Shown here in pieces: positions 1,873 to 26,192 of a stretch of DNA of 27,137 bases (positions are counted from its first letter, which is position 1; each line of letters begins with the position of its first letter). The DNA is from a virus. The position numbers were made by a program, and so were the translations under genes. The notes below the pieces were generated by a model, which made no database searches, was not told where the DNA came from, and saw nothing but the letters and a program-made list of their open reading frames with translations. The DNA lies in IMG/VR virus record IMGVR_UViG_3300045051_001502, positions 1-27,137 of that record. One strand, 5' to 3'.

Positions 1873-1879
1873 TATTTAT
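1873..1879 (-). promoter_or_regulatory. ATAAATA box ahead of the coiled-coil/TM lysis gene
   Basis: The minus strand reads TTAATAAATACAGG. The box overlaps the stop codon of the 70-aa gene and lies 12 nt upstream of the GTG at 1860, so it could start a lysis-gene transcript. If transcription began 6 nt downstream, the AGGA ribosome site would be lost, which is a point against a promoter role at this copy. Confidence 0.4.
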
Positions 1880-2091
1880 TAATTGTTTACACTTTTTGGA
1901 ACAGCAGACTTAATAACCGCCACTTCCAAATCATATTGCTCCAACGCGCTTGGATTTCCCAAGCGCGCATCCTGTTCCGCCGCACGCACTGCCGCATCAG
2001 GCCAACGAGATAGGATCAACCATCTACGCTTTGCCTCCCAACCAATGTCTTTCGGACACAAAGCCATCAAATCAACCAACCACTCTTCCAT
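1879..2091 (-). CDS. Small hypothetical protein
   Basis: This gene encodes 70 aa, begins 3 nt after the stop codon of the glycine-rich tail gene and ends at an ATAAATA box. The sequence is soluble and helical with two Trp-rich segments (EEWLVDLMALCP, RRWLILSRWPDAAVRAAEQD). No family is recognised. Its position between adhesin and lysis genes recalls small tail-fibre assembly factors, but nothing in the sequence proves this. Confidence 0.65.
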   Translation of the reverse strand: MEEWLVDLMALCPKDIGWEAKRRWLILSRWPDAAVRAAEQDARLGNPSALEQYDLEVAVIKSAVPKSVNN

Positions 2092-2094
2092 AAC

Positions 2095-3444
2095 TTACTC
2101 CTTATACAACGCAACCGCTGCAACACGTTGAGCCTTAGCGTTCATCGCCTTGATACGAGCCTTCATCTGTGTACCACTTGGCTGCGTAGATACATCGGCA
2201 CGCGCTTTGATAATGCTGTAATTGCCATCATAGGAACTCACAACGGTTAGCGTTGCAGTGGTCCACGTTGCGCCATTGTCACGCGACAACTCCACAATCA
2301 AATCAGTTCCAATAACCGCCGAACCGCTATCATCTTTCCAAAGGAAATATGCAACCATCGCAGACGGTGCGGATGTAGCCGAAACCGTTGGCGATTGGAG
2401 CGTCATTGTAGACGAAACATAGGAAATCACGATGCGGCCATTACCGCCCGTAAGATCGCCACCCATCTGACCATTACCGATGCCCGATACATAATCGGCA
2501 TCACCAGTACCAGCAGCAGTTTGGTTAGGGGCTTGAGTGTTAACTACAGTGCCAGTGAGATTAGCAACATAGGACGAACCACCGCCGCCACCGCCGCCAT
2601 ATGAACCACCACCACCATAGTAACCACCACCGCCACCACCAGAGGTGCCGGAAGATGTCGCGCTTCCTGAAGTATCACCGGCACCACCCGCATACTGTGA
2701 ACCTGCGTAAGCGTTACCGCCCGAGCCAGTACCAGCAGCACCACCAGCCGATTGCGTACCGCCCTTACCTGTGTAAGCAGTGCTGTACTGCGAATAACCA
2801 TCACCACCAGTAAGGCCACCGCCAACACCGCCACTGAGTGCTGCATTGCCGGAGTTACCAGCACCACCACCTGCACCTGCCGTTACAATATCGGCAGTAC
2901 CACGGCGAATGGCTGATCTACCACCACCAGAACCACCGCCATTGCTACCAGCAGCACCGCCGCCGCCATAACGTGTTCCGGCATTAGCCGCACCCGCTTG
3001 ACCAACTACAAACGTAAGCGTTTCACCGGGGGTAACAGCCAACGTACCAGAAACAAAACCACCACCACCGCCGTAGTCTGCATTACCAGAACCCGATGTC
3101 TGAATGGATGATCCACCACCAGCACCCCACAACTTCACATTCAACGATGTGACACCAGCAGGGACAACAAACGTCTGATCGGAACCCGTGTAGGAGTAAG
3201 CCGACTTTATCGGACCTGGGCCGTAATAATAATTTGGCGCTGAAGATGTCAGTGAGTAGTTACTTGAACCAGTGGCCCACTCATCGGAACCGAGTTCCCA
3301 CTGATAACCTTGCATCAACGCACCGCTTGAAACAGCGGTGTTCAACATCATACGCAAATTCGTAACAATGATATCTTCTTTTGATGGCAACGTTGATGTG
3401 AATGACGCATCAACCAACCCACTCTTAACCTTTGTCAAAGCCAT
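2095..3444 (-). CDS. Glycine-rich tail adhesin / fibre-tip protein
   Basis: This gene encodes about 449 aa from ATG 3444, giving MALTKVKSG, a start typical of phage tail proteins. The frame can extend to a TTG at 3465 without a better ribosome site. Residues about 95-125 (FVVPAGVTSLNVKLWGAG) open a glycine-rich domain. About 200 residues dominated by GGGG, GGAG and GSGG runs follow, then SSYVANLTGT and NGRIVISYVSS. This matches the phage glycine-rich domain seen in receptor-binding tips, in which glycine-rich runs can pack as polyglycine helices. The C-terminal ~100 residues form a separate beta-rich domain. It directly follows the tail fibre gene, so it probably decorates or tips the fibre and contributes to host recognition. 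Its glycine runs are a likely site of rapid variation. Confidence 0.8.
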   Translation of the reverse strand: MALTKVKSGLVDASFTSTLPSKEDIIVTNLRMMLNTAVSSGALMQGYQWELGSDEWATGSSNYSLTSSAPNYYYGPGPIKSAYSYTGSDQTFVVPAGVTSLNVKLWGAGGGSSIQTSGSGNADYGGGGGFVSGTLAVTPGETLTFVVGQAGAANAGTRYGGGGAAGSNGGGSGGGRSAIRRGTADIVTAGAGGGAGNSGNAALSGGVGGGLTGGDGYSQYSTAYTGKGGTQSAGGAAGTGSGGNAYAGSQYAGGAGDTSGSATSSGTSGGGGGGYYGGGGSYGGGGGGGSSYVANLTGTVVNTQAPNQTAAGTGDADYVSGIGNGQMGGDLTGGNGRIVISYVSSTMTLQSPTVSATSAPSAMVAYFLWKDDSGSAVIGTDLIVELSRDNGATWTTATLTVVSSYDGNYSIIKARADVSTQPSGTQMKARIKAMNAKAQRVAAVALYKE

Positions 3445-3465
3445 ACTTAAACCCAAACCTTTCAA

Positions 3466-5643: not shown

Positions 5644-5680
5644 TCCAAATCACCTTTACCAACAGAATGGCATTCCTCCA

Positions 5681-5687
5681 TATTTAT
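5681..5687 (-). promoter_or_regulatory. ATAAATA box ahead of the tail fibre gene
   Basis: The minus strand reads GGATAAATATGGAGG. The box overlaps the stop codon of the 830-aa ejection protein and lies 37 nt before the fibre ATG. A GGAGGAATG immediately downstream would open only a five-codon ORF (MPFCW), whose ribosome-site spacing is too short to be convincing. Confidence 0.5.
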
Positions 5688-8176
5688 CCATTGCTTCCGA
5701 AATCCGGTCCCCTATCGGGGGCATTTCTACCCGGACGCCACCAAAACTTTTGCCCGTAATACTTCTTACGGTTCTCAATCTGCCTTGAGAAAATTTCATT
5801 AGCGTTTGGCGTGATTGCCTTCGTAACAGCATCTTCAACAAGCCTGTCAAACGCCAAGCGGCCATACCAAATATTGTTGCCAGGGATGTATTTCAGCAGG
5901 TTCCTATTTTCGGAAAATGCAGACTTCCACATCTTGTCATATGGCTTTCCATTAGCCATCGCATTGAAGAAGGACCAAGACGGACGCAAAACGTCATTCG
6001 TCAACTGAACCATTGGACCAATGGTGGCGTTGAGGAACGGCGTCACTGCATCGCTTGAACGCTTCTGGCGAACGCTATCAATGGAGGTCTTCAGGTAGTC
6101 ACCGATGATGCCACCAGCGCCACCCTGGAAAAACGCATCCATCCAAAAGCCTGGGGTATCCCAACTACGTGGATCGCGGCCCGCTGAAATATCCTTCAAC
6201 GTGAGCGCAATTCCGCCAAGCAATGTCATACTCAGCGTGAAGCCAGCCGCGTATCCAGCACCTTGGGAGAATGAATTCTCAACACTTAGCATTCTGCCAA
6301 GGTGAGAATAGATTAGGAGGATTGGATACCTCTTATACATAGATACGGTTCGGCCAATCTGACCTTTCAAATGTGCGTCGGCAAAGGTGCGCTCAAACTT
6401 CCAACCAGCCGTAATGATTGCCTTATCGGTTTCTGCGTTGATGTATTGCCCCACCTTAACCGCCGCCTCTGCTGCGCCTGGTAGCGTGGCCTCCATACGC
6501 TCCAATGCGGCAAGGTTGATGTGCGGGATACCGTTCCTGTTGAGGGTTGGTGACTGGCGGATGATGTCCCACTCAGCCGCGCTAACGCCGTTGATCTTCA
6601 GGCCGCGTTGCAACCCGTTATCCAGTTGGTCAAAGGTCTTGTTGAAGGACTTAGCAAGCGTCTGAGCCATCGTGACGCTAAAGGCCACGCGACCGGCGTC
6701 CGTGTGACGGGTGAGGCCCGACCAGCGAAGCACCTTATCAGCCATCACCGTTCCAAGGCCCTTGGCCTCGGCAACTCCATAGGTGGCCTCTGCAAGAATG
6801 TTGGCCTGTAGGTGTTCCACCTGTAGGCCCAACCCCGCCGCAAACACCTTGATTTCATCGGCGCTCTTGCCCGAGAACAAACCATCCAGATAGTTCTTCA
6901 TCACTTGAACGATGGGCATATCATTAAAGCCAGCCGTCCAAGCCAACGTGCCAAAGTCACCCGTTGCGCTCAGTAGGGCACTACCCAACTGCGCAGATGC
7001 GATAATACCGCGTGCGTTATCCCAATACTTTGCATTCGTCTGATTGATGGCACCGAACGCCCTACCGTTTGCGATGTCCACCCATTCGTCAATGTGTTGA
7101 GCAATGTTATTCTCAACCTTGATAAGTCCCTTCACATCGCTGATTGGCTTACCAACTCTCTCGTTCTGAATGGTCCTGATAGCCGTAGCCTTAAGATGCT
7201 CAATCCCTTGAGCAACGTTAGGCCCAAATGTTTCCATCTGAGCAATCTCACGGCTCATATTCGTAATCTGCTTAATGGCAGTGCTTACAATGTCACGCTC
7301 ACCAAACCGCTCATTGTATGAAAACCAACCATCACCAGCGAAGTGAAGGACACGCTCATTATCATACTTGTTCGCAGTGGAAGCCTTGCCCTGGAACGTT
7401 GTTGACTTCTTATTGTATCCGTTCGTGGCAATCGTCTCATACATCGCATCCAAAACAGCGTTCAACTTCGGATCGCTCATTGGAAGACCCGTGTAATCGT
7501 CAATCATCTTAGAGCGGTCAAGCAATGGCTTAACGAAGGCCACCCATTCCGCCTTGGGCACCTCACCAACCTTCACCGAAGAGTGAATGTGCTGAAGATC
7601 GTAATTGCCACGCTTCCCGATGGCACCACCAGCCAACGCAAACCTATCGCTTACATAATCAAGAGACTGCCTCACACCATCGGCAAATGCCTTGGCCCAC
7701 TTGTCGCCTGTGCTGATACCAACCATTTCGGAATAAATGTTCTTCTGCGTGCTTTCCAGAACTTCGCCCTTGAACTTCCTTGGCAGGTTGGCGATTGCCT
7801 CTGAATAGAACTTCTTCGCCTGTGCTTCAATGTAGCGTGAGCGATATTCAAGGCTGTTGAACGTGTAGCGGTCGCGCCAATCCGGGGTGAAAATGGCATT
7901 TACGGCCTTCATTACATCATCAGCGTTTGCAATATGCGCGGCCAAGTTCGCGTGCGCCTTCATCTGTAGGGCTGCACGGAACGCCTTGATGGATGCATTG
8001 TTGCGCAACTGTCCAACAAGTGTGCGCTGGGCCAGGGAGGCGGCGGCTTGTGGGTTCATCGCACCACCAGCCATATGGGCTTGTGACGCAGCCCGGAAAT
8101 CATTGATTAGTTTCTGACCATCAGCAGCATCAATGAAATTCTGTCTAACCGCATTGTTAATACACTTCTCAACCAT
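5684..8176 (-). CDS. Large internal virion / DNA ejection protein
   Basis: This gene encodes 830 aa from ATG 8176 (a GTG at 8179 directly precedes it). Mostly helical, it has one clear hydrophobic stretch at about residue 645 (AAGFTLSMTLLGGIALTL) and a C-terminal block NRNLLKYIPGNNIWYGRLAFDRLV. That block and WSGLTRHTDAGRVAFS resemble a family of large podovirus structural proteins encoded just upstream of the tail fibre. By position it corresponds to part of T7 gp16. No transglycosylase-like motif was seen. It is probably carried inside the capsid and ejected to form a conduit across the envelope. Functional details are inferred from position. Confidence 0.8.
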   Translation of the reverse strand: MVEKCINNAVRQNFIDAADGQKLINDFRAASQAHMAGGAMNPQAAASLAQRTLVGQLRNNASIKAFRAALQMKAHANLAAHIANADDVMKAVNAIFTPDWRDRYTFNSLEYRSRYIEAQAKKFYSEAIANLPRKFKGEVLESTQKNIYSEMVGISTGDKWAKAFADGVRQSLDYVSDRFALAGGAIGKRGNYDLQHIHSSVKVGEVPKAEWVAFVKPLLDRSKMIDDYTGLPMSDPKLNAVLDAMYETIATNGYNKKSTTFQGKASTANKYDNERVLHFAGDGWFSYNERFGERDIVSTAIKQITNMSREIAQMETFGPNVAQGIEHLKATAIRTIQNERVGKPISDVKGLIKVENNIAQHIDEWVDIANGRAFGAINQTNAKYWDNARGIIASAQLGSALLSATGDFGTLAWTAGFNDMPIVQVMKNYLDGLFSGKSADEIKVFAAGLGLQVEHLQANILAEATYGVAEAKGLGTVMADKVLRWSGLTRHTDAGRVAFSVTMAQTLAKSFNKTFDQLDNGLQRGLKINGVSAAEWDIIRQSPTLNRNGIPHINLAALERMEATLPGAAEAAVKVGQYINAETDKAIITAGWKFERTFADAHLKGQIGRTVSMYKRYPILLIYSHLGRMLSVENSFSQGAGYAAGFTLSMTLLGGIALTLKDISAGRDPRSWDTPGFWMDAFFQGGAGGIIGDYLKTSIDSVRQKRSSDAVTPFLNATIGPMVQLTNDVLRPSWSFFNAMANGKPYDKMWKSAFSENRNLLKYIPGNNIWYGRLAFDRLVEDAVTKAITPNANEIFSRQIENRKKYYGQKFWWRPGRNAPDRGPDFGSNG

Positions 8177-8192
8177 CACTCACCATCTTCCA

Positions 8193-13365: not shown

Positions 13366-13788
13366 TCACTCCTTAATCAACGCATACCGGAAATAATCTC
13401 TTCCGTTCGCATACATTCTATCCAATCCGACTTTCTCAAACCCAAGCCACTCAACAAACCTTTGCCCTTGTGGGAAATCAGCCCTCACTTGCGCTTGAAG
13501 CCTTACATATTCAGTCATCATATTTTCAATGTGCCACTTAACTTCCTTGATGATGCTCTTTCGGTATCTTGGCAGTTTGTCAGAGAACAACGCCCATAGT
13601 TCGCCATTACCCGGTTGAACCGTCACAACACCACCCATTGCAATCACCTCACCGTCATACATTGCAGTGAACGCATATGTGTTTGCATATGCTGGCAGAT
13701 ATTGAAGATGGTTAAGAAACTCCTCTCGTTGCTCCTCACGCACATTCAAACCACTTAGTTGCAACTCATTGAATGGAACAAAGATCAT
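13366..13788 (-). CDS. Internal virion protein gp13-like, GNAT fold
   Basis: This gene encodes 140 aa. Its ATG overlaps the stop of the tail tubular B gene (ATGA). The layout AFTAMYDGEVIAMGGVV, then GELWALFSD, then a helix and AQVRADFPQGQRFVEWLGFEKVG is that of the degenerate GNAT fold in T7 gp13-type proteins (virion assembly factor for the internal core). The usual acetyl-CoA loop (R/QxxGxG/A) is missing, so catalysis is doubtful. Position between gp12-like and gp14-like genes supports the call. Confidence 0.78.
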   Translation of the reverse strand: MIFVPFNELQLSGLNVREEQREEFLNHLQYLPAYANTYAFTAMYDGEVIAMGGVVTVQPGNGELWALFSDKLPRYRKSIIKEVKWHIENMMTEYVRLQAQVRADFPQGQRFVEWLGFEKVGLDRMYANGRDYFRYALIKE

Positions 13789-16370: not shown

Positions 16371-16383
16371 ACGAACACCTCAA

Positions 16384-16416
16384 AACAATATGGGGAGGCT
16401 TTCACCTCCCCATATT
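16384..16416 (-). terminator. Hairpin terminator/attenuator between capsid and tail genes
   Basis: A perfect 12-bp stem (16387-16398 with 16405-16416, arm AATATGGGGAGG, 6-nt loop) is followed on the minus strand by GTTTTG. It lies 27 nt past the capsid stop codon, where strong expression of the capsid must be cut down for the tail genes. The first arm overlaps the ATAAATA box at 16413-16419. Confidence 0.7.
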
Positions 16417-16419
16417 TAT
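16413..16419 (-). promoter_or_regulatory. ATAAATA box ahead of tail tubular A
   Basis: The minus strand reads GTTGATAAATATGGGG, 42 nt before the ATG at 16370. Four bases are shared with the 5' arm of the 12-bp terminator hairpin. Transcription starting about 6 nt downstream would begin inside that arm and could not form the full hairpin. Confidence 0.5.
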
Positions 16420-16442
16420 CAACTACCTATCAAATCAGATTG

Positions 16443-17333
16443 TTAGGCAATCTTGGCCTTAACCTTAACAACAGCCTCTTCTTCCATACGAACGGCACCG
16501 ATGAAGGTAGCAGTCTGGATAGCGAAGTTATTGTTGTGGGTCGGCAGGCGATCAATCGTAGTAGACGGCATATCGTTGTAACCAATCTTCACCGCGTCAG
16601 CGTCAGCAAAGATAAAGTCAGCAATGTTAGAGCCATCAACCGGGCACAGATTGGAAACAACCCAAGTGAAGCCATACCAACGTGCGATGGTGCCTTCAAC
16701 CAACGGCTTAACAGCGTTGTAGTCAGCGGAACCAACCTGAGCAATTGCAAGCAACTGGTCCAGGGCTTCGGAGTTCACGATAGCAATACGGTTCTTGGTG
16801 GAAACACCCTTCTTATCCAACAGTACCTTAGCGCGACGAACCTTGGAGAGCGTCAGGCCGGTATCAACGCCGCTATTGTCATAGTTAGCAGCAACAGTCT
16901 GACCAGCAGGCAGAGCAACAGCAGCACCGCCCTTGACAGTAGCGGAACCAAGGAACGCATTGATGATAACTTCATCGCGCTTGATGCCAACGGCTTCAGC
17001 GTGACGCTGAACCAACTGGCCGGTTGGGTCTTCGCCGCCCATCTTGATGATTTCATCATAGGAAAGAAGATCGGCGCGGCCATACTGAGCGAGGTGGATA
17101 CCGCGCTGGTCAATGGAGAGCGCGGAGAACTGCGTTTCAGTACCCTTGGCACCAATGCTATTCAGCGTGGCAGTACCAAGACGCTTGTAATAAAACGTGT
17201 CGGCATTCTGGACAACCTTGTTAGAAATCAGGTTCCAGAGTTGAGACTGTTCCTGAGACTTGAGATACCAGCCCTGGTTAAACGTATCCTTGAAGGCCGG
17301 CGAAAAATCACTAAATCCGGTAATAGTAGACAT
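16443..17333 (-). CDS. Major capsid protein
   Basis: This gene encodes 296 aa with a GAGG ribosome site 7 nt from the ATG. Conserved-looking blocks include LYLKSQEQSQLW-like WYLKSQEQSQLWNLIS near residue 22, GRADLLSYDEIIKMGGEDPTG around 86-106, AVGIKRDEVIINAFLGSA and FIFADADAVKIGYNDMP. These resemble podoviral major capsid proteins of the HK97 fold. It stands alone between the scaffold gene and the tail operon with its own ATAAATA box, a structured ~200-nt leader and a downstream terminator, consistent with the highest expression level of the region. No frameshifted extension is apparent. Confidence 0.9.
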   Translation of the reverse strand: MSTITGFSDFSPAFKDTFNQGWYLKSQEQSQLWNLISNKVVQNADTFYYKRLGTATLNSIGAKGTETQFSALSIDQRGIHLAQYGRADLLSYDEIIKMGGEDPTGQLVQRHAEAVGIKRDEVIINAFLGSATVKGGAAVALPAGQTVAANYDNSGVDTGLTLSKVRRAKVLLDKKGVSTKNRIAIVNSEALDQLLAIAQVGSADYNAVKPLVEGTIARWYGFTWVVSNLCPVDGSNIADFIFADADAVKIGYNDMPSTTIDRLPTHNNNFAIQTATFIGAVRMEEEAVVKVKAKIA

Positions 17334-17536: not shown

Positions 17537-17544
17537 TATTTATA
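17537..17544 (-). promoter_or_regulatory. TATAAATA box, candidate capsid promoter
   Basis: The minus strand reads GATTATAAATAAG, an exact match to the T4 late promoter core TATAAATA. It sits 2 nt before the end of the scaffold gene and 203 nt upstream of the capsid ATG. No -35-like element is conserved among the copies in this window. Confidence 0.55.
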
Positions 17545-17545
17545 A

Positions 17546-18454
17546 TCAAAAGCCCGTATTTTGGGCCTTAGCCTTATAAATCTCTTCCTGCAACCTACGA
17601 ACCTCTGACATCACATCCTTGTGACGCGGATCGTTTCCATTATAGAAAGCAACAAAGTCCTTAGAGGTCTTGTCATACATAATCTCTTTGATACGCGCCT
17701 CCGCATTCACAACATTGAATGCACTTCCGGCGCTATCACGGATCGTATCTTCTGCAAACTGGCGGGTGAAATTGTGAATGGCTTTAATGAAGCCAGCATC
17801 AATACCAGCCTGAGAGTTAGCAAAACGGTCTGCCGTTTCCTTTCCACCAAACTGCACAAGAGCGTTGTAAACACCCCTAATATTCTTGTCGTAACTGGTT
17901 CCCCATTCCTTGCGCAGTTCGGTTTCCGTCTGCTGGGCAATCTCATTGAAGCCCTGCACCAGAGTGGTTGCGTATTCCTTCGCAATCACGTTTGCGGCCT
18001 CGTTGCTGATACCGGCCTTGTGGGAAATGCCCTTGAGCCAATCCACCTGCCGGGGATCGGCCTTGATGCCCTCGGGCAAGATGATTTCGTATTTGTCCGG
18101 GGCATCCGGTACGCCCATCTTGGCGCGAAACTCCGCAACCTCTTCCGGGGTCGCATTGGCACCAGGGAGGCGCACAACATCCTTTGCACCGCCCTTGAGG
18201 GATTCCAGGTTGGAATAGGACTTGAACACGTCTTCAAGTCGCACCTCGCCGGTATCCGCGTTCCAAAACTTATCGGGCACGTATTCCGGGCGGGATGTGG
18301 CGGCTTTGGATTCTGCCTGGGGCTTGGTGGCCTCTTCCGCCTTCGGGGCCTCTACGGCGCTGGCAAGCGGGCTGGCGACCATCGTAAGGGCTGGGGTATT
18401 GCTTGGTTCGGCGCTGGCATCAGCAGCCGGGGTAACGTTATTCGCTTCTTCCAT
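17546..18454 (-). CDS. Capsid assembly scaffolding protein
   Basis: This gene encodes 302 aa from ATG 18454, with GGAG 7 nt upstream. The longer frame to a TTG at 18490 overlaps the preceding gene and lacks a ribosome site. Residues 1-65 are a disordered Ala/Pro/Glu-rich tail. The segment RPEYVPDKFWNADTGEVRLEDVFKSY-type block (about 62-85), then GVPDAPDKYEI and NEIAQQTETELRKEWGTSYD are typical of podoviral scaffolds. It is expected to drive procapsid assembly and be absent from mature virions. It lies directly upstream of the capsid gene. Confidence 0.9.
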   Translation of the reverse strand: MEEANNVTPAADASAEPSNTPALTMVASPLASAVEAPKAEEATKPQAESKAATSRPEYVPDKFWNADTGEVRLEDVFKSYSNLESLKGGAKDVVRLPGANATPEEVAEFRAKMGVPDAPDKYEIILPEGIKADPRQVDWLKGISHKAGISNEAANVIAKEYATTLVQGFNEIAQQTETELRKEWGTSYDKNIRGVYNALVQFGGKETADRFANSQAGIDAGFIKAIHNFTRQFAEDTIRDSAGSAFNVVNAEARIKEIMYDKTSKDFVAFYNGNDPRHKDVMSEVRRLQEEIYKAKAQNTGF

Positions 18455-18458
18455 TAAA

Positions 18459-18719
18459 TCACTCCAAATCAGTTTCTTGGGTAATTGCAATCAACTTCTC
18501 ATATGGCATCTTCAACGCATTGATGAGTTCCAACCCAACCGCACGCTTTCCCTCAAGGAAATACGTCTCGTTAGCATCAGCCCCAACACTGCTATCAAAT
18601 GCACCAGTGTTGCGCATAAACCACTTAAGCGCCTTCTCGCCATCAGGCGTATCAAAAAGGCGCTGTAGGGCCATAATCTCTTCAGCCCTACGCATCCTCA
18701 AATTCATAAAATCAAACAT
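18459..18719 (-). CDS. Bbp19-like small phage protein
   Basis: This gene encodes 86 aa. Its ATG overlaps the portal stop codon (TAATG), and 4 nt separate it from the scaffold start. The block LFDTPDGEKALKWFMRNTGAF followed by YFLEGKRAVGLELINALKMP resembles the small conserved protein between portal and scaffold in BPP-1-like podoviruses (Bbp19). Its function is unknown. The constant position suggests a part in head assembly. Confidence 0.75.
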   Translation of the reverse strand: MFDFMNLRMRRAEEIMALQRLFDTPDGEKALKWFMRNTGAFDSSVGADANETYFLEGKRAVGLELINALKMPYEKLIAITQETDLE

Positions 18720-20365
18720 TAACCACCATTACCAAGTGAGTTCATAAGCGTATTTACCGGACCTGACGTGTTGGCAGTCACACTTTCAGCATTAGCCAAC
18801 TTCTGGATTCCATCCATCATCTGCTGTTGCTGCATCATCTGGTCCTGTGCCTGCTGCGCCGCTTCCTTGTTCGTCTTAACCGTATAATCGGAAAGCACGA
18901 TGGAACGCGGCAGGCCGTACACTTCCGCCACTTCCTTAGCCAAAGCGTCACCATCAAAGCGACCAGCCAACGGGTTTTGCGGGTTGAAGAACGGGGCCAG
19001 GTTGCCCAACAGGCCAAAGGTGCGGGCAATCGCATCCGCCTTGCGTTCCTGTTGCTTGCGGGCAAGCGGAGAGGTCCACACTGGACGCCACACCTTGCCT
19101 ACCAACTGCTGGGGAACAGGCGGATACACACCCTTGCGGGAAAGAATGCCGTAAACGCGGGTGATGATCGGCTCAAGCAACTCAGATTGCAGACGCCCCA
19201 ACACACTGGTTAGGATTCGCTCACGTTCTTCCGTGCCCTGCTGGACACCCTGAGCGGTCACATACTGCAAATCCCTGAATGACTGGATGTTGATGATATC
19301 CGCAAAGAAGGTGCGGCGGATTTGCTCGCGCCTATCCTTCGCCGCGCTATCCACCAACTGCGGCTGAACGCCAAGGTTCAACACCTCGGGCTTTGCCCCA
19401 CCCTTCTTTTTGTAAACCTTGCTGAATGGCTGCCACTTAAATTCACTCAAGAGCGAATCATCATCAATGACAACAGGTGGCGCAGCCGCAATCTGCTTTG
19501 CCTTAAGGGAGATATCCTCAATCTTGTTAAGAACCAGAATATCATTCAAACACTGCATTGCCGGGCTGTAACCATACACGTCACCAGATAGACGCGCCCA
19601 ACGAGCAACAATCATTGCATCCTCTTGGAAGCCACCTTCCTCAAGTTCAACGCCGTTATCCATATCAATCCAAATGGAGGCAATCGGCATACTCTTCTTG
19701 TCACGCTTGGAATAGTCAGCATCACGGCGCGGCATAATGCAGTGAAGAAGTGTAACCTCTTTATCTGGGTCATCCTTATACAGACGCTTCCAGTTGGTAT
19801 GAAGTTTCTCAGCCCCATACTCTTCCACCACTTCACGAATTGGCTTCTTCACCTCGCGGAAGATCGTATCAATGCGACCACTGCTTTCAGCAACCACAAA
19901 CTCCGCAACGTTACGAGCCTCAAACCTAATGAGGTCCAAATCATTCGGCTGAATAAGCAGGCCACCAGTTCCATAAATCAAGAGGTCGGTATAAACCTCA
20001 ATCATCGCTTCACCGAAATTGGTCTGCTGAAGATAGTGATTGGTGATGCGTCCAACCTTCTCCAACCAATCAGATACTTCCGGCTGATTGGCAAGGTTGG
20101 CATCACTGATCGTTGCCAAGAACCAATCCGTGGTCGGATTGGTCAAAGCACCGTTGAGGGAGTGCGCCAACTGAATAGCGGCTTCCGTAGCAGTGGTATC
20201 AAGCACAGTAACGTTGCGCTTACCACCGCTCACACTCTGATTATTCATATTACGAGGAACCGGAGAAACGTAATCGGCTACCTGCTGGTAAATGGACAAC
20301 CAACCCTGCTTATTCGCCTTTAGTTTATTATACCGGGCCTTGATCTTGTTAACGTCAACAGCCAT
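18719..20365 (-). CDS. Portal (head-tail connector) protein
   Basis: This gene encodes 548 aa, the usual size for podoviral portals (T7 gp8 has 536). Diagnostic blocks are ARYNKLKANKQGWLSIYQQV at the N-terminus, LAHSLNGALTNPTTDWF, the crown/wing region with ARWARLSGDVYGYSPAM at about 252-268, and LSRKGVYPPVPQQL near 407. The C-terminal tail is Gln/Met-rich (QDQMMQQQQMMDG). It forms the dodecameric vertex for DNA packaging and tail attachment (head-tail connector family, PF12236 type). Confidence 0.94.
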   Translation of the reverse strand: MAVDVNKIKARYNKLKANKQGWLSIYQQVADYVSPVPRNMNNQSVSGGKRNVTVLDTTATEAAIQLAHSLNGALTNPTTDWFLATISDANLANQPEVSDWLEKVGRITNHYLQQTNFGEAMIEVYTDLLIYGTGGLLIQPNDLDLIRFEARNVAEFVVAESSGRIDTIFREVKKPIREVVEEYGAEKLHTNWKRLYKDDPDKEVTLLHCIMPRRDADYSKRDKKSMPIASIWIDMDNGVELEEGGFQEDAMIVARWARLSGDVYGYSPAMQCLNDILVLNKIEDISLKAKQIAAAPPVVIDDDSLLSEFKWQPFSKVYKKKGGAKPEVLNLGVQPQLVDSAAKDRREQIRRTFFADIINIQSFRDLQYVTAQGVQQGTEERERILTSVLGRLQSELLEPIITRVYGILSRKGVYPPVPQQLVGKVWRPVWTSPLARKQQERKADAIARTFGLLGNLAPFFNPQNPLAGRFDGDALAKEVAEVYGLPRSIVLSDYTVKTNKEAAQQAQDQMMQQQQMMDGIQKLANAESVTANTSGPVNTLMNSLGNGG

Positions 20366-20379
20366 TCAAACACCACCCT

Positions 20380-21113: not shown

Positions 21114-21121
21114 CACTCACC

Positions 21122-21129
21122 TATTTATA
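21122..21129 (-). promoter_or_regulatory. TATAAATA box ahead of the acetyltransferase
   Basis: The minus strand reads TTTTATAAATAGGTGAG between the terminase stop (21136) and the ATG at 21113. The box is an exact T4-late-type core. It sits only 8 nt from the start codon, so a transcript from it would be nearly leaderless. Read-through RNA retains AGGTGA as ribosome site. Confidence 0.5.
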
Positions 21130-21135
21130 AAAGAA

Positions 21136-22431
21136 TCAGATTTCCAATGGGTTCCATCCGCTATCTGGCTTGTCATACCTACGCCAATCATACGTTTTGC
21201 CCGCATAAGCGCGCACCTCTTCAACGCCAAGAGCCAGATACCTAAATGCATCCGAACCGTGGCTATATTCATCGTGAACAGGCTTGGGAGATAGAACGCC
21301 GTGCTTATCAATGATCGGGCGGCACTGCTTCAAACAAGAAATGCCACGCTCAGTCTTTTCCTCATTGAAGCGGCAACGATCCAACATAACACGCGCCGCA
21401 TTAATGCCCTCAATGACGCTCATACGAGGAATGACAATATCAAAATCAATCCCGTAGTTACGTGCAATCTCACGTCTGGTTGGCGCACCAAACAAATCAT
21501 TAGAACGCACCTCAATATCGTGAGGCGCAATATGGGAACCAAAGTTGTATGGCTTGGAGTTTACAAGCGAACACCAGTCTGGAATGGAAAGGCCGGAACC
21601 TTCCTCATAATCAATCAGGTGAATTTCATTACCGATGATCTGGAAGAACCAGATAGCGGTTGCATCCGCCATACCCAAATCCCACGCGGTATGAACGGGA
21701 TGAGCCTTGTTCCAGCCGTAAGACCCGATGTGACCGGCGGCGGCAAGGCGGGACAATTCCTTGACGTAAAACGCCCCAGGAATGGCACCCTCAAAGGAAC
21801 ACATAAACTCCTGTTCAAACGCCTCTTCCGTCTGCCCCTCTCGGATTTCGGCAATCTCTTCCTCATTGAAGACACCCGACCGAGTGATGGGAATAACAGC
21901 AGAGAACCACTTGGCTGGGTTGGCATTGGCCTCTTTGAGTTTCAGCCAAAGAAGGTTGTTTCCCTTGCCCTTCGGAGTGCCAACGAAAATCACCCATCCC
22001 TTCTTATCCTGAAGGGCGGGGAAGATAACGAGGGAATACACTTGCTCGGGGATGTCTTGGCACTCATCCAAAACCGCCCCATCCCAACCCTTGCCACGAA
22101 GGGCCTCCGGGTTCTCACACCCGTATAGGGTGATGCGGGCACCGTTGGGGAAGTCGCACCTCAGTTCCGATTCATTGAAGGAAATGCCTTGAAGGCCCTT
22201 CGTGTAGGTCTTGAAGAAATCCCACACGATATCCTTAGCCTGCATACGCTGGGGGGCGATATAGGCAAACCTACCGTTGGGCTTTTGAAGCGCCTTGAGG
22301 ATCAATTCATTAACGCAAAACACAGTCTTGCCAGCACGACGATGAATAACGATTGCGTTCCTTCGCGTCAGACTTTGATGCAATACCCGCTGATAGAGAC
22401 GCGGAGAGTATGGGTGAACCCATTCTGCCAT
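21136..22431 (-). CDS. terL: Terminase large subunit
   Basis: This gene encodes 431 aa. The ATPase part has Walker A RRAGKT at residues 31-36, Walker B with catalytic acid VLDECQD at about 120-126, and the coupling motif FVGTPKG near 149-155. The nuclease part has HTAWDLGMADATAIW (Asp about 251) and the C-terminal SHGSDAFRYLALG, where family members carry the last metal-binding Asp. It docks on the portal and cuts and pumps DNA. The ribosome site AGGTGG is 6 nt from the ATG and is masked in read-through RNA by a hairpin. Unusually, the small-terminase-like gene is 3 kb away beyond an oppositely oriented block. Confidence 0.95.
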   Translation of the reverse strand: MAEWVHPYSPRLYQRVLHQSLTRRNAIVIHRRAGKTVFCVNELILKALQKPNGRFAYIAPQRMQAKDIVWDFFKTYTKGLQGISFNESELRCDFPNGARITLYGCENPEALRGKGWDGAVLDECQDIPEQVYSLVIFPALQDKKGWVIFVGTPKGKGNNLLWLKLKEANANPAKWFSAVIPITRSGVFNEEEIAEIREGQTEEAFEQEFMCSFEGAIPGAFYVKELSRLAAAGHIGSYGWNKAHPVHTAWDLGMADATAIWFFQIIGNEIHLIDYEEGSGLSIPDWCSLVNSKPYNFGSHIAPHDIEVRSNDLFGAPTRREIARNYGIDFDIVIPRMSVIEGINAARVMLDRCRFNEEKTERGISCLKQCRPIIDKHGVLSPKPVHDEYSHGSDAFRYLALGVEEVRAYAGKTYDWRRYDKPDSGWNPLEI

Positions 22432-22436
22432 TGATA

Positions 22437-22468
22437 ACCACCTAACTGTTCTTGTTGGTGGTATTTAT
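22437..22468 (-). promoter_or_regulatory. ATAAATA box fused to a ribosome-site-masking hairpin at terL
   Basis: The minus strand reads GATAAATACCACC. The arm ACCACC (22457-22462) begins on the last base of the box and pairs perfectly with GGTGGT (22437-22442), which contains the terL ribosome site AGGTGG. The loop is 14 nt. A transcript starting 6 nt after the box (about 22456) would lack the masking arm. Confidence 0.55.
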
Positions 22469-22733
22469 CTTTGCGTCCCGAAAACTCTGCGCCTTGAAAG
22501 GAGGCATTTCAAAAACTTGAAAAATTATGTGTGACCCTTGGGACAAGGAAACGGCGCGGGTATTCATTTTTGGGGTATGGGGTGCAATCAACCCACCCCC
22601 ATACATCATCAATCTTCGTCCCGCCTAACGTCGCCCATCTTCACACTTATCCTCTTCCTGTTCCTCTCATCAATCTTCTCATCAATCATTTTTCCCCTTG
22701 CCTATGCCTATCACCTGTGCCATATGTCCACTC
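22469..22733. promoter_or_regulatory. Divergent intergenic region between terL and the plus-strand block
   Basis: No gene is supported here. The plus strand carries TTGAAA (22494-22499), TTTCAA (22507-22512) and TTGAAA (22517-22522), alternating half-sites that look like a regulator-binding cluster. Further right, GTATGGGG (22575-22582) and CCCCATAC (22597-22604) form a stem extendable by two pairs around one bulge. From about 22605 to 22720 the plus strand is strongly pyrimidine-rich with repeated ATCAATC. I found no convincing sigma70 promoter for the plus-strand genes. Confidence 0.4.
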
Positions 22734-22753
22734 GCAACGTCGCTCAACGTTGC
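22734..22753. promoter_or_regulatory. Inverted repeat with CGCTCA loop ahead of the 58-aa gene
   Basis: GCAACGT (22734-22740) and ACGTTGC (22747-22753) are a perfect 7-bp inverted repeat around CGCTCA. The same six-base loop with a different but still fully paired stem occurs at 26162-26179. It lies 34 nt before the ATG at 22788 and may be an operator or an RNA hairpin. Confidence 0.5.
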
Positions 22754-22787
22754 TTGTTTGTAACCTGCAAGTGAAAGGCAAACCCTA

Positions 22788-22964
22788 ATGGCTGGTATCA
22801 CTACCACCCGCTTCATTGGCTCAGTTGCCCGTGATTTGGTTCTCATTCAGAACATTGTGACTGGCTACTATGTCACGGTGGCTAATGATAACGAGATGAA
22901 CGAGGTGATTGAGACGAACAAGGTTGCGGAGATTGGTGATAAGATTACTCATTCGTTTGAGTGA
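22788..22964 (+). CDS. 58-aa hypothetical protein
   Basis: This gene encodes 58 aa, from ATG 22788 to TGA 22962-22964. The sequence begins MAGITTTRFIGSVARDLV, continues with a beta-like segment VTGYYVTVAND and ends in charged residues. No domain is recognised. A weak AAAGG lies 10 nt upstream. A 9-bp intercistronic hairpin follows, then the 63-aa gene and a strong terminator, so the two appear to form a small operon on the strand opposite to the virion genes. Coding status rests on the clean arrangement. The gene is too short for certainty. Confidence 0.55.
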   Translation: MAGITTTRFIGSVARDLVLIQNIVTGYYVTVANDNEMNEVIETNKVAEIGDKITHSFE

Positions 22965-22972
22965 CCTTATCA

Positions 22973-22996
22973 GAGAGGGGGAGCAATCCCCCTCTC
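22973..22996 (+). other. Intercistronic hairpin
   Basis: GAGAGGGGG (22973-22981) and CCCCCTCTC (22988-22996) form a perfect 9-bp stem with a 6-nt loop, starting 8 nt after the stop codon of the 58-aa gene. There is no T-run, so it is more likely an mRNA-processing or stability element than a terminator. Confidence 0.6.
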
Positions 22997-23022
22997 AACC
23001 AGCCAAGTGTTTGAATGGTGAT

Positions 23023-23214
23023 ATGATGGAGTTTGTTGCAGACGTTCAAAGCGGAACGGTGCATATGGTTTCCCCATCCGTTGGCAAGGCCATTATGGAC
23101 TTGGACACATACGAGAGCGGGCAGATAGTGGCACTCACGCCATATCACGCTTTGGTGAGGTGGGGGAACGGCAGGAGCAAGGTATATCGGTGGCTACAAC
23201 GCCAACCAGATTGA
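23023..23214 (+). CDS. 63-aa hypothetical protein
   Basis: This gene encodes 63 aa starting at the double ATG 23023/23026. The open frame extends further left but would run into the preceding gene and its hairpin. The sequence MMEFVADVQSGTVHMVSP...YESGQIVALTPYHALVRWGNG looks like a small SH3-like beta barrel, the type found in short phage nucleic-acid or protein-binding modules. This is a structural impression only. No strong ribosome site is visible. A rho-independent terminator follows 5 nt after the stop codon. Confidence 0.5.
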   Translation: MMEFVADVQSGTVHMVSPSVGKAIMDLDTYESGQIVALTPYHALVRWGNGRSKVYRWLQRQPD

Positions 23215-23219
23215 GTGAG

Positions 23220-23242
23220 AGGGGCGGGAAACCGCCCCTTTT
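23220..23242 (+). terminator. Rho-independent terminator
   Basis: AGGGGCGG and CCGCCCCT (23220-23227, 23232-23239) pair around a GAAA tetraloop, followed by TTTT. It begins 6 nt after the stop of the 63-aa gene and closes the first plus-strand operon. Confidence 0.88.
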
Positions 23243-23285
23243 CACGTCTGAAGATGATAAGATGATTTGGGATTGAAATTGGGTG

Positions 23286-23315
23286 TTGACACGGTTTGGA
23301 GAGAGGGTTTAGAAA
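23286..23315 (+). promoter_or_regulatory. Sigma70-type promoter for the 142-aa gene
   Basis: A consensus -35 box TTGACA (23286-23291) is followed after 18 nt by TAGAAA (23310-23315, four of six consensus bases). It comes after the preceding terminator and about 105 nt before the ATG at 23420. It implies host-polymerase transcription of this gene, independent of the ATAAATA class. Confidence 0.5.
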
Positions 23316-23325
23316 CTGAGTATGG

Positions 23326-23404
23326 TTGGTGGGTTGCTCACCTACCAATCGGGTTTCCGAGGAAGCCCACGCTCTTTGAAAGGCAATCGTGCCTGCATCG
23401 TGCA
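23326..23404 (+). promoter_or_regulatory. Structured leader with consecutive hairpins before the 142-aa gene
   Basis: Three hairpins follow each other. TTGGTGGG/CCTACCAA (23326-23348) has one G-U pair. GGGTTTC/GAAGCCC (23351-23368) has a CGAG tetraloop and one G-U pair. AGGCA/TGCCT (23381-23394) has an ATCG loop, with a mutually exclusive TGCA/TGCA pairing up to 23404. The GGAGG ribosome site (23409-23413) comes next. It could be a regulatory leader. No known riboswitch family is recognised. Confidence 0.45.
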
Positions 23405-23419
23405 TAGTGGAGGTTTACA

Positions 23420-23848
23420 ATGGCTAAGGCTGCTACTGGTTCGCTGCTGTCGCTTCTGAACATCGTTGATGAGAAGAAGCCCGCTCCCCAGCAGATGGGG
23501 AAGGACCCGGTGAAGAACTACATTGCTGGTCTTGAGGAACAGATTGGTTTCGTGAAGCGTGAGATTGCGGGTGAACCGCTCCCGCTCACGAAGTCGGGTA
23601 AGAAGCCTCGTCTGGTCTATTGGAAGAAGGGTTTGGAGTTCTTCGTTTCCGTCCAGTACGGTTCGGTTCCGATGGACTTGGGCGGTGGTTCCACCATCAA
23701 GGCCGGTAAGACCCTGGCTGAAGTTGAGAAGGTGTTGAACACCCTCAAGGAAGCCGCTCAGAAGGGTGAACTGGACGAACCCATTCACGCAGCCGCCGCC
23801 GCGATTTCCAAGCGGCTGGCGGGCAAGGGTGGGCGCCGTCGGGCCTAA
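23420..23848 (+). CDS. Basic 142-aa protein of unknown function
   Basis: This gene encodes 142 aa with an excellent ribosome site (GGAGG, 6 nt). It is Lys/Arg-rich at the start and end (C-terminus SKRLAGKGGRRRA), with a central beta-like region RLVYWKKGLEFFVSVQYGSVPMD and a helical C-terminal third (AEVEKVLNTLKEAAQKGEL). Its charge and size suggest a nucleic-acid-binding protein. The family is not recognised. It is monocistronic: its own sigma70-like promoter, structured leader and one of the strongest terminators of the window frame it. It therefore may be expressed early or continuously. Confidence 0.8.
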   Translation: MAKAATGSLLSLLNIVDEKKPAPQQMGKDPVKNYIAGLEEQIGFVKREIAGEPLPLTKSGKKPRLVYWKKGLEFFVSVQYGSVPMDLGGGSTIKAGKTLAEVEKVLNTLKEAAQKGELDEPIHAAAAAISKRLAGKGGRRRA

Positions 23849-23866
23849 CCCACACCACGTCAAACA

Positions 23867-23899
23867 GGGGCACCCCTCACCGGGTGCCCCTTTTCTTTT
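23867..23899 (+). terminator. Strong rho-independent terminator
   Basis: GGGGCACCC (23867-23875) and GGGTGCCCC (23882-23890) form a perfect 9-bp GC-rich stem with a 6-nt loop. TTTTCTTTT follows. It isolates the 142-aa gene from the recombinase. Confidence 0.92.
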
Positions 23900-23924
23900 G
23901 CCCTCTTGCCCCTTCCCCATCGCC

Positions 23925-23961
23925 CTTGTAAACTTGCAACGCTGGTCCACAGATTTACAAG
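23925..23961. repeat. Inverted repeat upstream of the serine recombinase (candidate recombinase site)
   Basis: CTTGTAAA (23925-23932) and TTTACAAG (23954-23961) are perfect inverted copies separated by 21 nt. A further partial copy, CTTGCAA (23933-23939), follows the left arm. The right arm touches the GGGGGCGG ribosome region of the recombinase gene. Small serine recombinases bind inverted half-sites next to their own gene and often repress themselves there. Confidence 0.55.
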
Positions 23962-23970
23962 GGGGCGGAA

Positions 23971-24621
23971 ATGCGCCGCTTCGTCGCCTACTACCGCGTA
24001 TCCACCACCAAACAGGGTCAATCCGGCCTTGGCTTGGAAGCCCAACAATCAGCCGTTGCCGCATACCTGAATGGTGGGCGGTGGGAGTTGGTTGGTGAGT
24101 TTGTGGAGATTGAGAGCGGTAAGAAGAATGACCGCCCACAATTGGCTCAGGCGTTGAAGGTAGCCAAGGCCAACAAGGCAACGTTGGTGATTGCCAAACT
24201 GGATAGGCTGGCCCGTAACGTCCACTTCATATCCGGGTTGATGGAAAGCGATGTTGATTTCGTGGCGTGTGATATGCCCGATGCCAACAGGCTCACCATT
24301 CACATCCTTGCTGCTGTTGCCGAACACGAACGAGAAATGATTAGCCAACGCACCAAAGCCGCTCTTGCAGCCGCTAAGGCGCGAGGAACGAAGTTGGGCG
24401 GCAGTGACAAAGGCAGGGACATTGGCAAGGCCCGTGAGAAGATGGTTGAGAAGGCGGATGCCTTCGCGGCTTCCCTCTCCCCCGTGTTGAGGGAGATACA
24501 GGAAGCAGGCATCACCTCCCTATCGGGGATCGCCAGGGCCCTCACCGCCCGAGGCGTCCAGACGGCGCGCGGTGGGTCTTGGACGGCTAAGGCTGTTTCC
24601 AACCTCCTGGAACGGCTGTAG
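23971..24621 (+). CDS. Serine recombinase / resolvase-invertase family
   Basis: This gene encodes 216 aa. The catalytic domain shows YYRVST with the nucleophile Ser11 and Arg9, the conserved KLDRLARN at residues 76-83, and a long dimerisation helix HEREMISQRTKAALAAAK (about 119-136). Residues about 178-214 (GITSLSGIARALTARGV and following) form a helix-turn-helix of the resolvase type. The size fits small resolvases and invertases rather than large phage integrases, so inversion or resolution is more likely than prophage integration. It is oriented against the virion genes and has an inverted repeat immediately upstream. No partner crossover site was identified. Confidence 0.92.
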   Translation: MRRFVAYYRVSTTKQGQSGLGLEAQQSAVAAYLNGGRWELVGEFVEIESGKKNDRPQLAQALKVAKANKATLVIAKLDRLARNVHFISGLMESDVDFVACDMPDANRLTIHILAAVAEHEREMISQRTKAALAAAKARGTKLGGSDKGRDIGKAREKMVEKADAFAASLSPVLREIQEAGITSLSGIARALTARGVQTARGGSWTAKAVSNLLERL

Positions 24622-24628
24622 GGTCCTC

Positions 24629-24652
24629 GCCTGGTCGCGCGCCTGGTCGTGT
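24629..24652. repeat. Tandem 12-bp repeat after the recombinase gene
   Basis: GCCTGGTCGCGC and GCCTGGTCGTGT lie head to tail in the 52-nt gap between the convergent recombinase and methyltransferase genes. No hairpin terminator is evident there. The repeat might bind a protein or be a trace of a junction. Confidence 0.5.
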
Positions 24653-24673
24653 GGATCGGCACCCAGCCGGGGC

Positions 24674-25213
24674 TTATGGGTTCGCGTTGAAGAAGGCTTG
24701 TGCGAAGCCTGGGGGCGTAACTGAGCGCAACGCGGCGCGGGCCTTGCTCTCACCCATCAACCACATCTTACTGCCCTCAGTGGCCTCTACAGGCGTCTTC
24801 ACGGGGATGGTGAAATCACCCCACAGACAGGTTCGCTTGGTATAGGGGTCACCGTAATCACAGGGCTGGAACACCAGCCTTGGCTTCCCCAGATACCGGG
24901 TTAGCCGCCCAACCGGATTCTCCAATGCCCACCACTTGGGCTTATGGATGGCGATAATCCGCATACAGGCGTCAACAACCGCCAAACCCTCCAACAAGGC
25001 ACTCTCCCCCTTCTCCTCCCACCAGCGGGCACCGGAGCGGGCAAAGTGTGTGCAGGGTGGTCCCGCCAAGATGCCCTGAATGGGCTCATTAATGTGCTGG
25101 ATCAAACGAACATCATCACCGTTCTTCAACTCGTAACGGCGAACATCGTAACCTGCTTTTAGGTAAGGCTCACTCCAAGTGCCCCCACCACTACATAGTT
25201 CCAAGATAATCAT
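24674..25213 (-). CDS. Small DNA cytosine-C5 methyltransferase
   Basis: This gene encodes 179 aa from ATG 25213. A GTG at 25249 would add 12 residues but would place the ATAAATA box and hairpin inside the gene. Motif I is LELCSGGGTWSEPYLKAGY (S-adenosylmethionine site), motif IV is AGPPCTHFARSGARWW with the catalytic Cys, and motif VI is WWALENPVGRL. The C-terminus RSVTPPGFAQAFFNAN matches short phage members of the family. The target-recognition region is very small. It probably methylates phage DNA against host restriction. It lies between the small-terminase-like gene and the reverse-oriented block. Confidence 0.88.
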   Translation of the reverse strand: MIILELCSGGGTWSEPYLKAGYDVRRYELKNGDDVRLIQHINEPIQGILAGPPCTHFARSGARWWEEKGESALLEGLAVVDACMRIIAIHKPKWWALENPVGRLTRYLGKPRLVFQPCDYGDPYTKRTCLWGDFTIPVKTPVEATEGSKMWLMGESKARAALRSVTPPGFAQAFFNANP

Positions 25214-25239
25214 ACCGATATTTATTTTTCGGTATGATT
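25208..25239 (-). promoter_or_regulatory. ATAAATA box in the loop of a start-codon-masking hairpin
   Basis: AATCATACCGA (25208-25218) and TCGGTATGATT (25229-25239) form a perfect 11-bp stem. The 10-nt loop holds the box (25219-25225). The methyltransferase ATG (25211-25213) lies inside the 3' arm of the minus-strand RNA and would be hidden in read-through transcripts. A start 6 nt after the box would fall at about the A of the ATG, giving a leaderless message. Confidence 0.55.
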
Positions 25240-25264
25240 TGACACTCACAAATCAAACGTCAAT

Positions 25265-25366
25265 ACAAAGGCGATTTAAAGCCCATACAGGCCAGTTTCT
25301 TCTTAGTGGCTACCTACCTGCCCAAAAACATTTCATTGGCCTGTACGGGGCTTAAATCGCGCTTGT
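25265..25366. repeat. Long imperfect inverted repeat, candidate structured RNA or DNA site
   Basis: The arms at 25271-25294 and 25337-25360 pair at 22 of 24 positions, plus one G-T wobble, around a 42-nt loop. CAAA/TTG-type pairing can be extended a few bases on the outside to about 25265 and 25366. The arm begins GCGATTTAAAGCCC. The element fills the gap between the small-terminase-like gene and the methyltransferase. There is no T-run, so it is not an ordinary terminator. Confidence 0.75.
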
Positions 25367-25373
25367 GAGATAC

Positions 25374-25955
25374 TTACATTCCTTCTTCTCTATCGGCAGA
25401 CTGAACGTTATCAACCTCAATGCAATCCGCATCAATAATCCCAAGCCTACGCTTCTCTTCCAAAAACTCTTCCGGTGGCATCAACCCAAACTGGTGAACA
25501 ACGGTTAGCGTGTTGTCGCTGGTGTTGTGGTTCTCGTTGATCTTCTCTCTTGGGGAGGATGCATCAATCAGGTTCCAAAGCAACTTCGCTTTAGTCTCAT
25601 CCTGTTTGTTGATATATTCCTTCTTAACAATCTTCACATATTGCAGCAATGGATTGAAACCCATTTCCTCCAACTTCTCACGCAACAATACCGCCTTGTT
25701 GCGGGTGCCCTTCGGCTTGCCAGCCGGGTTAAGGGATGGAGCCCCCTTCACCATATTGGGATTGCCACGCTTCTTCTTAGGCTTTGGCTCATCATCATCC
25801 ATCGGCAGACTGTCATTCTTCTCTATCGGCAGACTATCAATCGGCTGATTTTCAAAAATGTTGAAAGGCGCGTTGGGTTCTCCCAACAATACACCCCTCT
25901 CGTTCGCCAAAGCACCATCTACATCAACGGATTTCTCACACTTTTTCACACTCAT
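25374..25955 (-). CDS. DUF5681-like protein, putative small terminase subunit
   Basis: This gene encodes 193 aa, with GGGGAG 5 nt from the ATG. The central block NMVKGAPSLNPAGKPKGTRNK is characteristic of DUF5681-type phage proteins encoded beside terminases. A helical region LREKLEEMGFNPLLQYVKIV follows, then LLWNLIDASSPREK, as in small terminase subunits of this kind. Residues about 38-60 hold a short repeat (DSLPIEKN, DSLPMDDD), and the C-terminus is acidic. It would recognise the packaging start on phage DNA. Oddly, the large subunit is 3 kb downstream behind an inverted gene block. The call rests on motif resemblance. Confidence 0.65.
   Translation of the reverse strand: MSVKKCEKSVDVDGALANERGVLLGEPNAPFNIFENQPIDSLPIEKNDSLPMDDDEPKPKKKRGNPNMVKGAPSLNPAGKPKGTRNKAVLLREKLEEMGFNPLLQYVKIVKKEYINKQDETKAKLLWNLIDASSPREKINENHNTSDNTLTVVHQFGLMPPEEFLEEKRRLGIIDADCIEVDNVQSADREEGM
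25383..25835. repeat. 20-bp exact direct repeat inside the small-terminase-like gene
   Basis: AGTCTGCCGATAGAGAAGAA (minus strand) occurs at 25816-25835 and again at 25383-25402, with an 11-bp partial copy at 25801-25811. The first copy is read as SLPIEK and the second in another frame as SADREE, so the identity is at DNA rather than protein level. Confidence 0.85.
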
Positions 25956-25963
25956 ATGCGCTC

Positions 25964-26030
25964 CCCTATAGGGAAATGCCTGTTCGTAATGGCATTTTTC
26001 CCCAATAAATCATTGGCTACGCATATTTAT
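25964..26030 (-). promoter_or_regulatory. Leader of the small-terminase-like gene with ATAAATA box
   Basis: The minus strand reads TTCAATAAATATGCG at the box (26024-26030). CAATAAAT (26025-26032) can pair with ATTTATTG (26003-26010), so this copy too lies in a hairpin arm. Further down are an AATGCC/GGCATT hairpin (25975-25996) and the 10-bp palindrome CCCTATAGGG (25964-25973) just ahead of the ribosome site. Confidence 0.45.
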
Positions 26031-26060
26031 TGAATAGGGTTGGAAATGGCGTGCTGTTGC

Positions 26061-26098
26061 AAAAGGAAAGCCCCCTTGCCTGGAGGGAGCAAGGGGGC
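26061..26098 (-). terminator. Rho-independent terminator between the 298-aa gene and the small-terminase-like gene
   Basis: GCCCCCTTGC (26070-26079) and GCAAGGGGGC (26089-26098) form a perfect 10-bp stem with a 9-nt loop, followed on the minus strand by TTTCCTTTTG. It ends the 298-aa gene's transcript and the candidate small RNA. The opposite strand has CAGTTTTA after the stem, so weak plus-strand activity is possible. Confidence 0.85.
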
Positions 26099-26179
26099 CA
26101 GTTTTACCGCTATGTTTGGAACGGATGTTCCACTTTAAGGAGGAGTATATAAGATTAACCAGTAAGTCGCTCAACTTAC
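26061..26179 (-). ncRNA. Candidate ~119-nt small RNA with anti-Shine-Dalgarno-like segment
   Basis: A TATAAATA box (26185-26192) predicts a start near 26179. There a hairpin begins at once: GTAAGT/ACTTAC (26174-26179 with 26162-26167). Then comes an unpaired AT-rich stretch containing CTCCTCCTTA (26136-26145), which includes CCTCCTTA, the 3' end of 16S rRNA. A GGAAC/GTTCC hairpin (26118-26131) with a four-base loop follows, and then the 10-bp terminator. No start codon and ribosome site combination exists in the interval on this strand. The open frame through the terminator looks spurious. Confidence 0.5.
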
Positions 26180-26184
26180 GAATA

Positions 26185-26192
26185 TATTTATA
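26185..26192 (-). promoter_or_regulatory. TATAAATA box heading the candidate small RNA
   Basis: The minus strand reads GTGTATAAATATATT in the gap after the 298-aa gene. It is an exact match to the T4 late core and has no protein gene before the next terminator. Confidence 0.5.

Follow-up and report, generated by a model that had tools for sequence, protein, structure and literature searches.

How virion genes are switched on in podoviruses that lack their own RNA polymerase (the HTVC010P, epsilon15 and BPP-1 groups) is little described in the literature searched. One locus of an uncultured short-tailed phage raises the question of whether a short repeated word, ATAAATA, serves there as the promoter of the virion genes. 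The window analysed is IMG/VR record IMGVR_UViG_3300045051_001502, positions 1 to 27,137. Manual curation of the genes, based on listed ORFs and on family matches, left 7.4% of the window as gaps. Nearly all curated genes lie on the minus strand, referred to here as the sense strand.

The sense strand carries ATAAATA in nine places, at 1873, 5681, 16413, 17537, 21122, 22462, 25219, 26024 and 26185, exactly where the first-pass annotation of this DNA had placed it. The expectation from 100 dinucleotide shuffles of the window was 1.93 copies on both strands (maximum 6), or approximately 0.8 per strand, so that the earlier estimate of about 1.7 per strand was too high. The proposed count in coding and non-coding DNA placed all nine copies in gaps of the curated genes and none inside a gene on that strand (binomial 0.074^9, approximately 7e-11; approximately 1e-6 corrected for 16384 heptamers), and ATAAATA is the commonest heptamer of the window gaps. 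The earlier claim that every copy is non-coding therefore stands with curated genes and depends, at 25219, on the methyltransferase start ATG 25213: a longer GTG start at 25249 would place this box in coding sequence, and the family match of the methyltransferase starts slightly upstream of ATG 25213. Among the 21 kinds of one-mismatch variants, 16 copies were found on the minus strand, five of them in gaps. The ATAAATA set is real, and it is restricted to gaps, oriented with the genes and exact. The window's only plus-strand copy, at 27126, lies at the contig edge, where it runs antisense to the beginning of ORF 26241-27137. One further copy beyond the window has the opposite orientation and lies in a convergent gap adjoining the integrase gene. 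At positions 4703-4740 of L019, a convergent gap between late genes and integrase holds a GGCCCCATAACCGGGGCC hairpin and an ATAAATA aimed against the late genes.

Nearly all of the nine boxes precede virion-side genes. The distances from box to next start are 5, 8, 12, 30, 37, 42, 68, 203 and 229 nt; the variation noted earlier was confirmed, with an upper limit of 229 rather than 203 nt. Five boxes lie within approximately 23 nt of an upstream stop codon. From right to left on the minus strand, box 1 (TATAAATA; 26185-26191, predicted +1 at 26179) is followed within approximately 110 nt by an intrinsic terminator in the interval between boxes 1 and 2 (26069-26099; 12-bp stem, T-rich tail), and no long gene has its start codon between box and terminator. 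The stretch from 26185 to 26069, comprising box 1, two small hairpins and the terminator but no long ORF, is a candidate small RNA. Box 2 (26024-26030, predicted +1 at 26018) lies 68 nt ahead of a 193-aa ORF (25374-25955) that is perhaps the terminase small subunit, judging from a weak DUF5681 match (E 0.058, below cut-off). Box 3 (25219-25225) occupies the loop formed by an 11-bp inverted repeat (25208-25239), and its predicted +1 coincides with the A of ATG 25213, where the DNA methyltransferase gene identified by family match begins (24674-25213). Between this gene and the terminase large subunit (TerL) gene, a reverse-oriented island on the plus strand (22788-24621) carries a resolvase of the serine recombinase type (23971-24621, plus strand) and no box on its strand; a terminator lies within the island at 23866-23891.

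Box 4 (22462-22468, predicted +1 at 22456) is located 30 nt ahead of TerL (21136-22431, family match), and box 5 (TATAAATA; 21122-21128, predicted +1 at 21116) 8 nt ahead of ATG 21113. The portal (head-tail adaptor) gene, recognised by family match and relatives, occupies 18719-20365. Box 6 (TATAAATA; 17537-17543) starts 2 nt past the stop of ORF 17546-18457 and 203 nt ahead of the major capsid protein gene (16443-17333, family match), and its leader opens with a strong hairpin, GGTGAGTGC...GCACTCACC. Box 7 (16413-16419) overlaps the 5' arm of a 13-bp post-capsid hairpin with a GAAA loop followed by GTTTTG (16387-16416), a likely terminator at the boundary of capsid and tail genes; the predicted +1 at 16407 falls inside the arm. 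The gene for tail tubular protein B follows at 13785-15767. Box 8 (5681-5687) contains the stop codon of ORF 5684-8176 and precedes the tail fibre gene by 37 nt, and box 9 (1873-1879) overlaps the stop codon of ORF 1879-2091, 12 nt ahead of GTG 1860. No tRNA or Rfam family was found in the window, and structure models of two upstream proteins were too poor for use.

The geometry of the boxes was compared with that of phage T4, whose late promoter is an 8-bp box that begins at -13 and is followed by an AT-rich segment, with no conservation at -35 (PMC2988020). Cyanophages carry the box as NATAAATA (PMC2984593). The base preceding the nine boxes is T, A or G, three times each, and neither a conserved -35 hexamer nor a shared upstream pentamer was detected across them, in agreement with the earlier remark that the upstream bases are not conserved. 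The sixth base after the box, which is the +1 of T4, is a purine at all nine boxes (P 0.003 for a position fixed beforehand by T4). The same procedure applied to the T4 late region gave a purine peak at the same sixth base (0.82) and placed 17 of 29 box copies in gaps forming 2.5% of that region. An AT-rich segment after the box was not found in the window, the five following bases being 44% AT.

Folding showed that the predicted starts at 25219, 22462 and 16413 would detach the 5' arm of a hairpin. At 25219, the 3' arm of the inverted repeat holds the ATG, which the repeat would cover in read-through RNA; at 22462, the stretch from box to predicted start includes the 5' arm CCACC, which pairs with AGGTGG, the ribosome site of TerL. 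The computed opening energy of the start region decreases from 11.3 kcal/mol in read-through RNA to 0.1 kcal/mol in box-initiated RNA at 25219, and from 15.6 to 5.4 kcal/mol at 22462. Both sites follow the hairpin logic of T4 genes e, soc, 49 and I-TevI, for which the same arrangement of late start and hairpin is documented (PMC3014915). Hairpin crossing over all nine boxes was not significant (P 0.14-0.19); it was therefore rejected as a property of the whole set, and hairpin cutting is offered for three sites only. The objection raised earlier, that a start 6 nt downstream would remove the ribosome site at two boxes, holds: the site AGGA is lost at 1873, and the start at 21122 likewise removes its ribosome site.

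The affiliation of the phage bears on which late system would be expected. The portal and tail tube B proteins are closest to those of HTVC010P-type pelagiphages (approximately 30-41%), followed by phiV10 and BPP-1, and an alphaproteobacterial prophage scores equally well on tail tube B. The phage is probably related to the HTVC010P, epsilon15/phiV10 and BPP-1 types rather than to T7 proper. TerL precedes the portal gene, as in HTVC010P and phiV10, and the Autographiviridae order with TerL after the tail genes was not found. Family scans, which covered the ORFs of the window and not the early region, named no RNA polymerase; the HTVC010P-type phage Skadi is reported to have no viral RNA polymerase (PMC10504331), and the phiV10 annotation contains none. 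With such relatives, the T7-like gene order described by the first-pass annotation applies to the virion module only, and a late system other than that of T7 is less odd than it had supposed. A second contig, IMGVR_UViG_3300044673_000060, overlaps the window with no mismatch and a single gap over the compared stretches and reaches 2.1 kb further left, where it carries a 120-aa ORF, a strong hairpin with a T-run and then a tyrosine integrase, and the phage is therefore probably temperate. No contig extending past the right end of the window was found. The unseen part of the genome, the early region, is perhaps about 5-13 kb long, given that relatives measure 34-42 kb.

An automated sense-strand gap scan was performed on the window and 153 related loci, each of at least 9 kb. 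The first gap scans, based on six-frame ORFs, lost much signal because of spurious antisense ORFs, and the sense-strand version recovered it: the window ranked first, and its corrected P was 1.2e-3 although the gene calls were rough. The pelagiphage relatives show no enrichment of ATAAATA, and no ATAAATA set was found in 40 alphaproteobacterial prophage loci or in 79 further viral loci; within this sample, the set is therefore peculiar to the present phage. Beyond simple AT-rich words, only ctQRb9 (MW202722) also stood out clearly, a related podovirus with a parallel, phage-specific box, GGTACCCG, present in four copies in virion-module gaps. On the minus strand of ctQRb9 (MW202722.1, L117), which is the sense strand of its virion module, GGTACCCGTA occurs at 34714, 30485, 24494 and 11942. 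Three marine viral contigs (L205, L208 and L210) were rejected as carriers, since most of their sense-strand excess of ATAAATA falls within genes; a single conserved copy precedes the capsid gene. This copy adjoins a TATATAAT, and the conserved capsid leader (L205 approximately 7806, L208 approximately 7816, L210 approximately 2860) reads ATAAATA then TATATAATCC(A/G)AATTACGGGTAGCTCA. The word TGCACAAT in L160 was rejected as a dispersed box, being a tandem iteron: six copies stand in tandem at 17204-17266 of this alphaproteobacterial prophage region, a possible origin or operator. Lack of conservation at the same gaps in related phages, which the first-pass annotation had named as evidence against promoters, was what we observed, the nearest relatives being only approximately 35-42% identical in protein, with no closer ones found.

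On this evidence, the nine boxes are probably phage-specific late promoters, read by the host core RNA polymerase together with a sigma-like phage factor that recognises only a -10 element. Each box would be a -10-type element without a -35, with transcription starting six bases after it, and a small phage factor, like T4 gp55 in function, would bring the host core enzyme. The boxes would then divide the virion region into units for terminase, portal side, capsid, tail, fibre and lysis side. At three sites, RNA begun at the box would lack one arm of a hairpin, the 5' one, so that a start codon, a ribosome site or passage through a terminator would be freed. Transcription from the boxes, the factor and the timing are what we infer; what the analysis shows is the box set with its gap restriction, orientation and exactness, the purine at the sixth base and, by folding, the hairpins. 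Points against this reading are that no factor was found, that the boxes are not conserved, that the AT-rich segment is absent, that two ribosome sites would be lost, that hairpin crossing is not significant over the nine boxes and that no long gene separates box 1 from the terminator after it. The T4-late-like reading of the first-pass annotation thus survives in gap restriction, sense orientation, exactness, lack of a -35 and the purine at T4's +1 position. It is not supported by the AT-rich segment or by conservation, and no gp55, gp45 or sigma-70 region 2 protein was found in the window or the overlapping contig, which do not reach the early region. In function the set most likely resembles the late promoters of T4; that it belongs to the T4 system is not established, the AT-rich segment being absent and the factor search having covered the 29 kb without the early region. 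We tentatively entertain the more specific possibility that a small temperate podovirus outside the T4 superfamily uses T4-type NATAAATA promoters with its own -10-only factor, some of them hairpin-gated, such that only late transcripts from the hairpin-embedded promoters would be translated or escape termination.

A narrower form of the late-promoter explanation is a true T4-type system, in which a gp55 homologue (with gp33 and gp45 or substitutes) would be encoded in the unseen early region. The exact T4 and cyanophage core, the same +1 geometry and the lack of a -35 speak for it, whereas the profile searches do not. Neither the gp55 profiles (phrog_234 and phrog_12791), nor the sigma-70 region 2 profile, nor the gp45 clamp profile gave a match in the window and overlapping contig (29 kb without the early region), while phrog_234 recovered gp55 in T4 as a positive control; the homologue search suggested earlier therefore returned nothing in these 29 kb. 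Nearly all gp55-bearing phage records in a sample of 60 exceed 150 kb; two records, of 48 and 57 kb, have the look of T4-type fragments. As the unseen part is perhaps only 5-13 kb and T4's AT-rich segment is absent, we regard a true T4-type system as doubtful.

Host promoters, in which the main host sigma factor or an alternative one would read the boxes as -10 elements, perhaps helped by a phage activator, are an unlikely source of the set. Box 1 is preceded by TTGACA, 18 nt before TATAAA, and it is the only box with this hexamer at about the 16-18 nt spacing of a sigma-70 -35/-10 pair. A vegetative -10 would not stay invariant over seven bases, no -35 or other column is shared, and sigma-70-like promoters show no excess in the window, with fewer matches than in shuffles. 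An RNA processing or translation signal, such as an AU-rich RNase E site between genes, would suit the five boxes close to an upstream stop codon and the several that adjoin hairpins; RNase E sites are degenerate, whereas the near-variants of the box are not concentrated in gaps, and the distances to starts range from 5 to 229 nt, which makes such a signal improbable. That the boxes serve a single-subunit RNA polymerase of the phage, with its gene in the unseen part, appears very improbable, since T7-type promoters are longer than the ATAAATA box. In favour of such an enzyme are the T7-type virion module and the AT-rich promoters of N4 RNAPII (PMC4496689), and against it the relatives that have none (HTVC010P type, PMC10504331; phiV10 annotation). 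Chance or the composition of AT-rich gaps is already largely refuted and barely credible: the gaps are slightly AT-richer (54%), but nine copies of one kind among the 98 all-A/T heptamers of the minus strand have a Poisson P of 6e-8, a Markov model trained on the window gaps gave a mean of 0.4 copies and the strand bias in gaps is 9 to 0.

Phage-specific late promoters thus remain the probable explanation, and the clean set of boxes, with its start base predicted, provides a directly testable late-promoter model for a podovirus without its own RNA polymerase. A box reader related to gp55 would extend the T4 late system past T4-like phages and other large ones; an unrelated reader would mean that two separate factors arrived at these seven bases by convergence. 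Among known systems, the HTVC010P-type and epsilon15/phiV10/BPP-1 phages have homologous virion proteins (portal and tail tube B, and partly also capsid and others) in similar order, and phiV10 also shares an integrase with this phage; unlike it, those examined have no ATAAATA set. The podoviruses phiEco32 and 7-11 have their virion genes read by the host core RNA polymerase with their own phage sigma factor; their late box is tAATGTAtA or tgtgatgttata (PMC4331800), and the phiEco32-type core tAATGTAtA is replaced here by ATAAATA. The late promoters of the cyanomyoviruses S-PM2 and Syn9 (NATAAATA) consist of the same seven bases with a free preceding base, and their carriers, unlike this phage, are large T4-like myoviruses with T4 late-transcription genes. 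From the T4 late promoters of the Straboviridae (TATAAATA, gp55/gp33/gp45), the present set differs in belonging to a temperate podovirus module, with no gp55 or gp45 seen, no AT-rich segment and position -13 free; common to both are the core box, its exactness, the location in gaps, the lack of a -35, the purine at the sixth base and, at some genes, hairpins cut by the late start.
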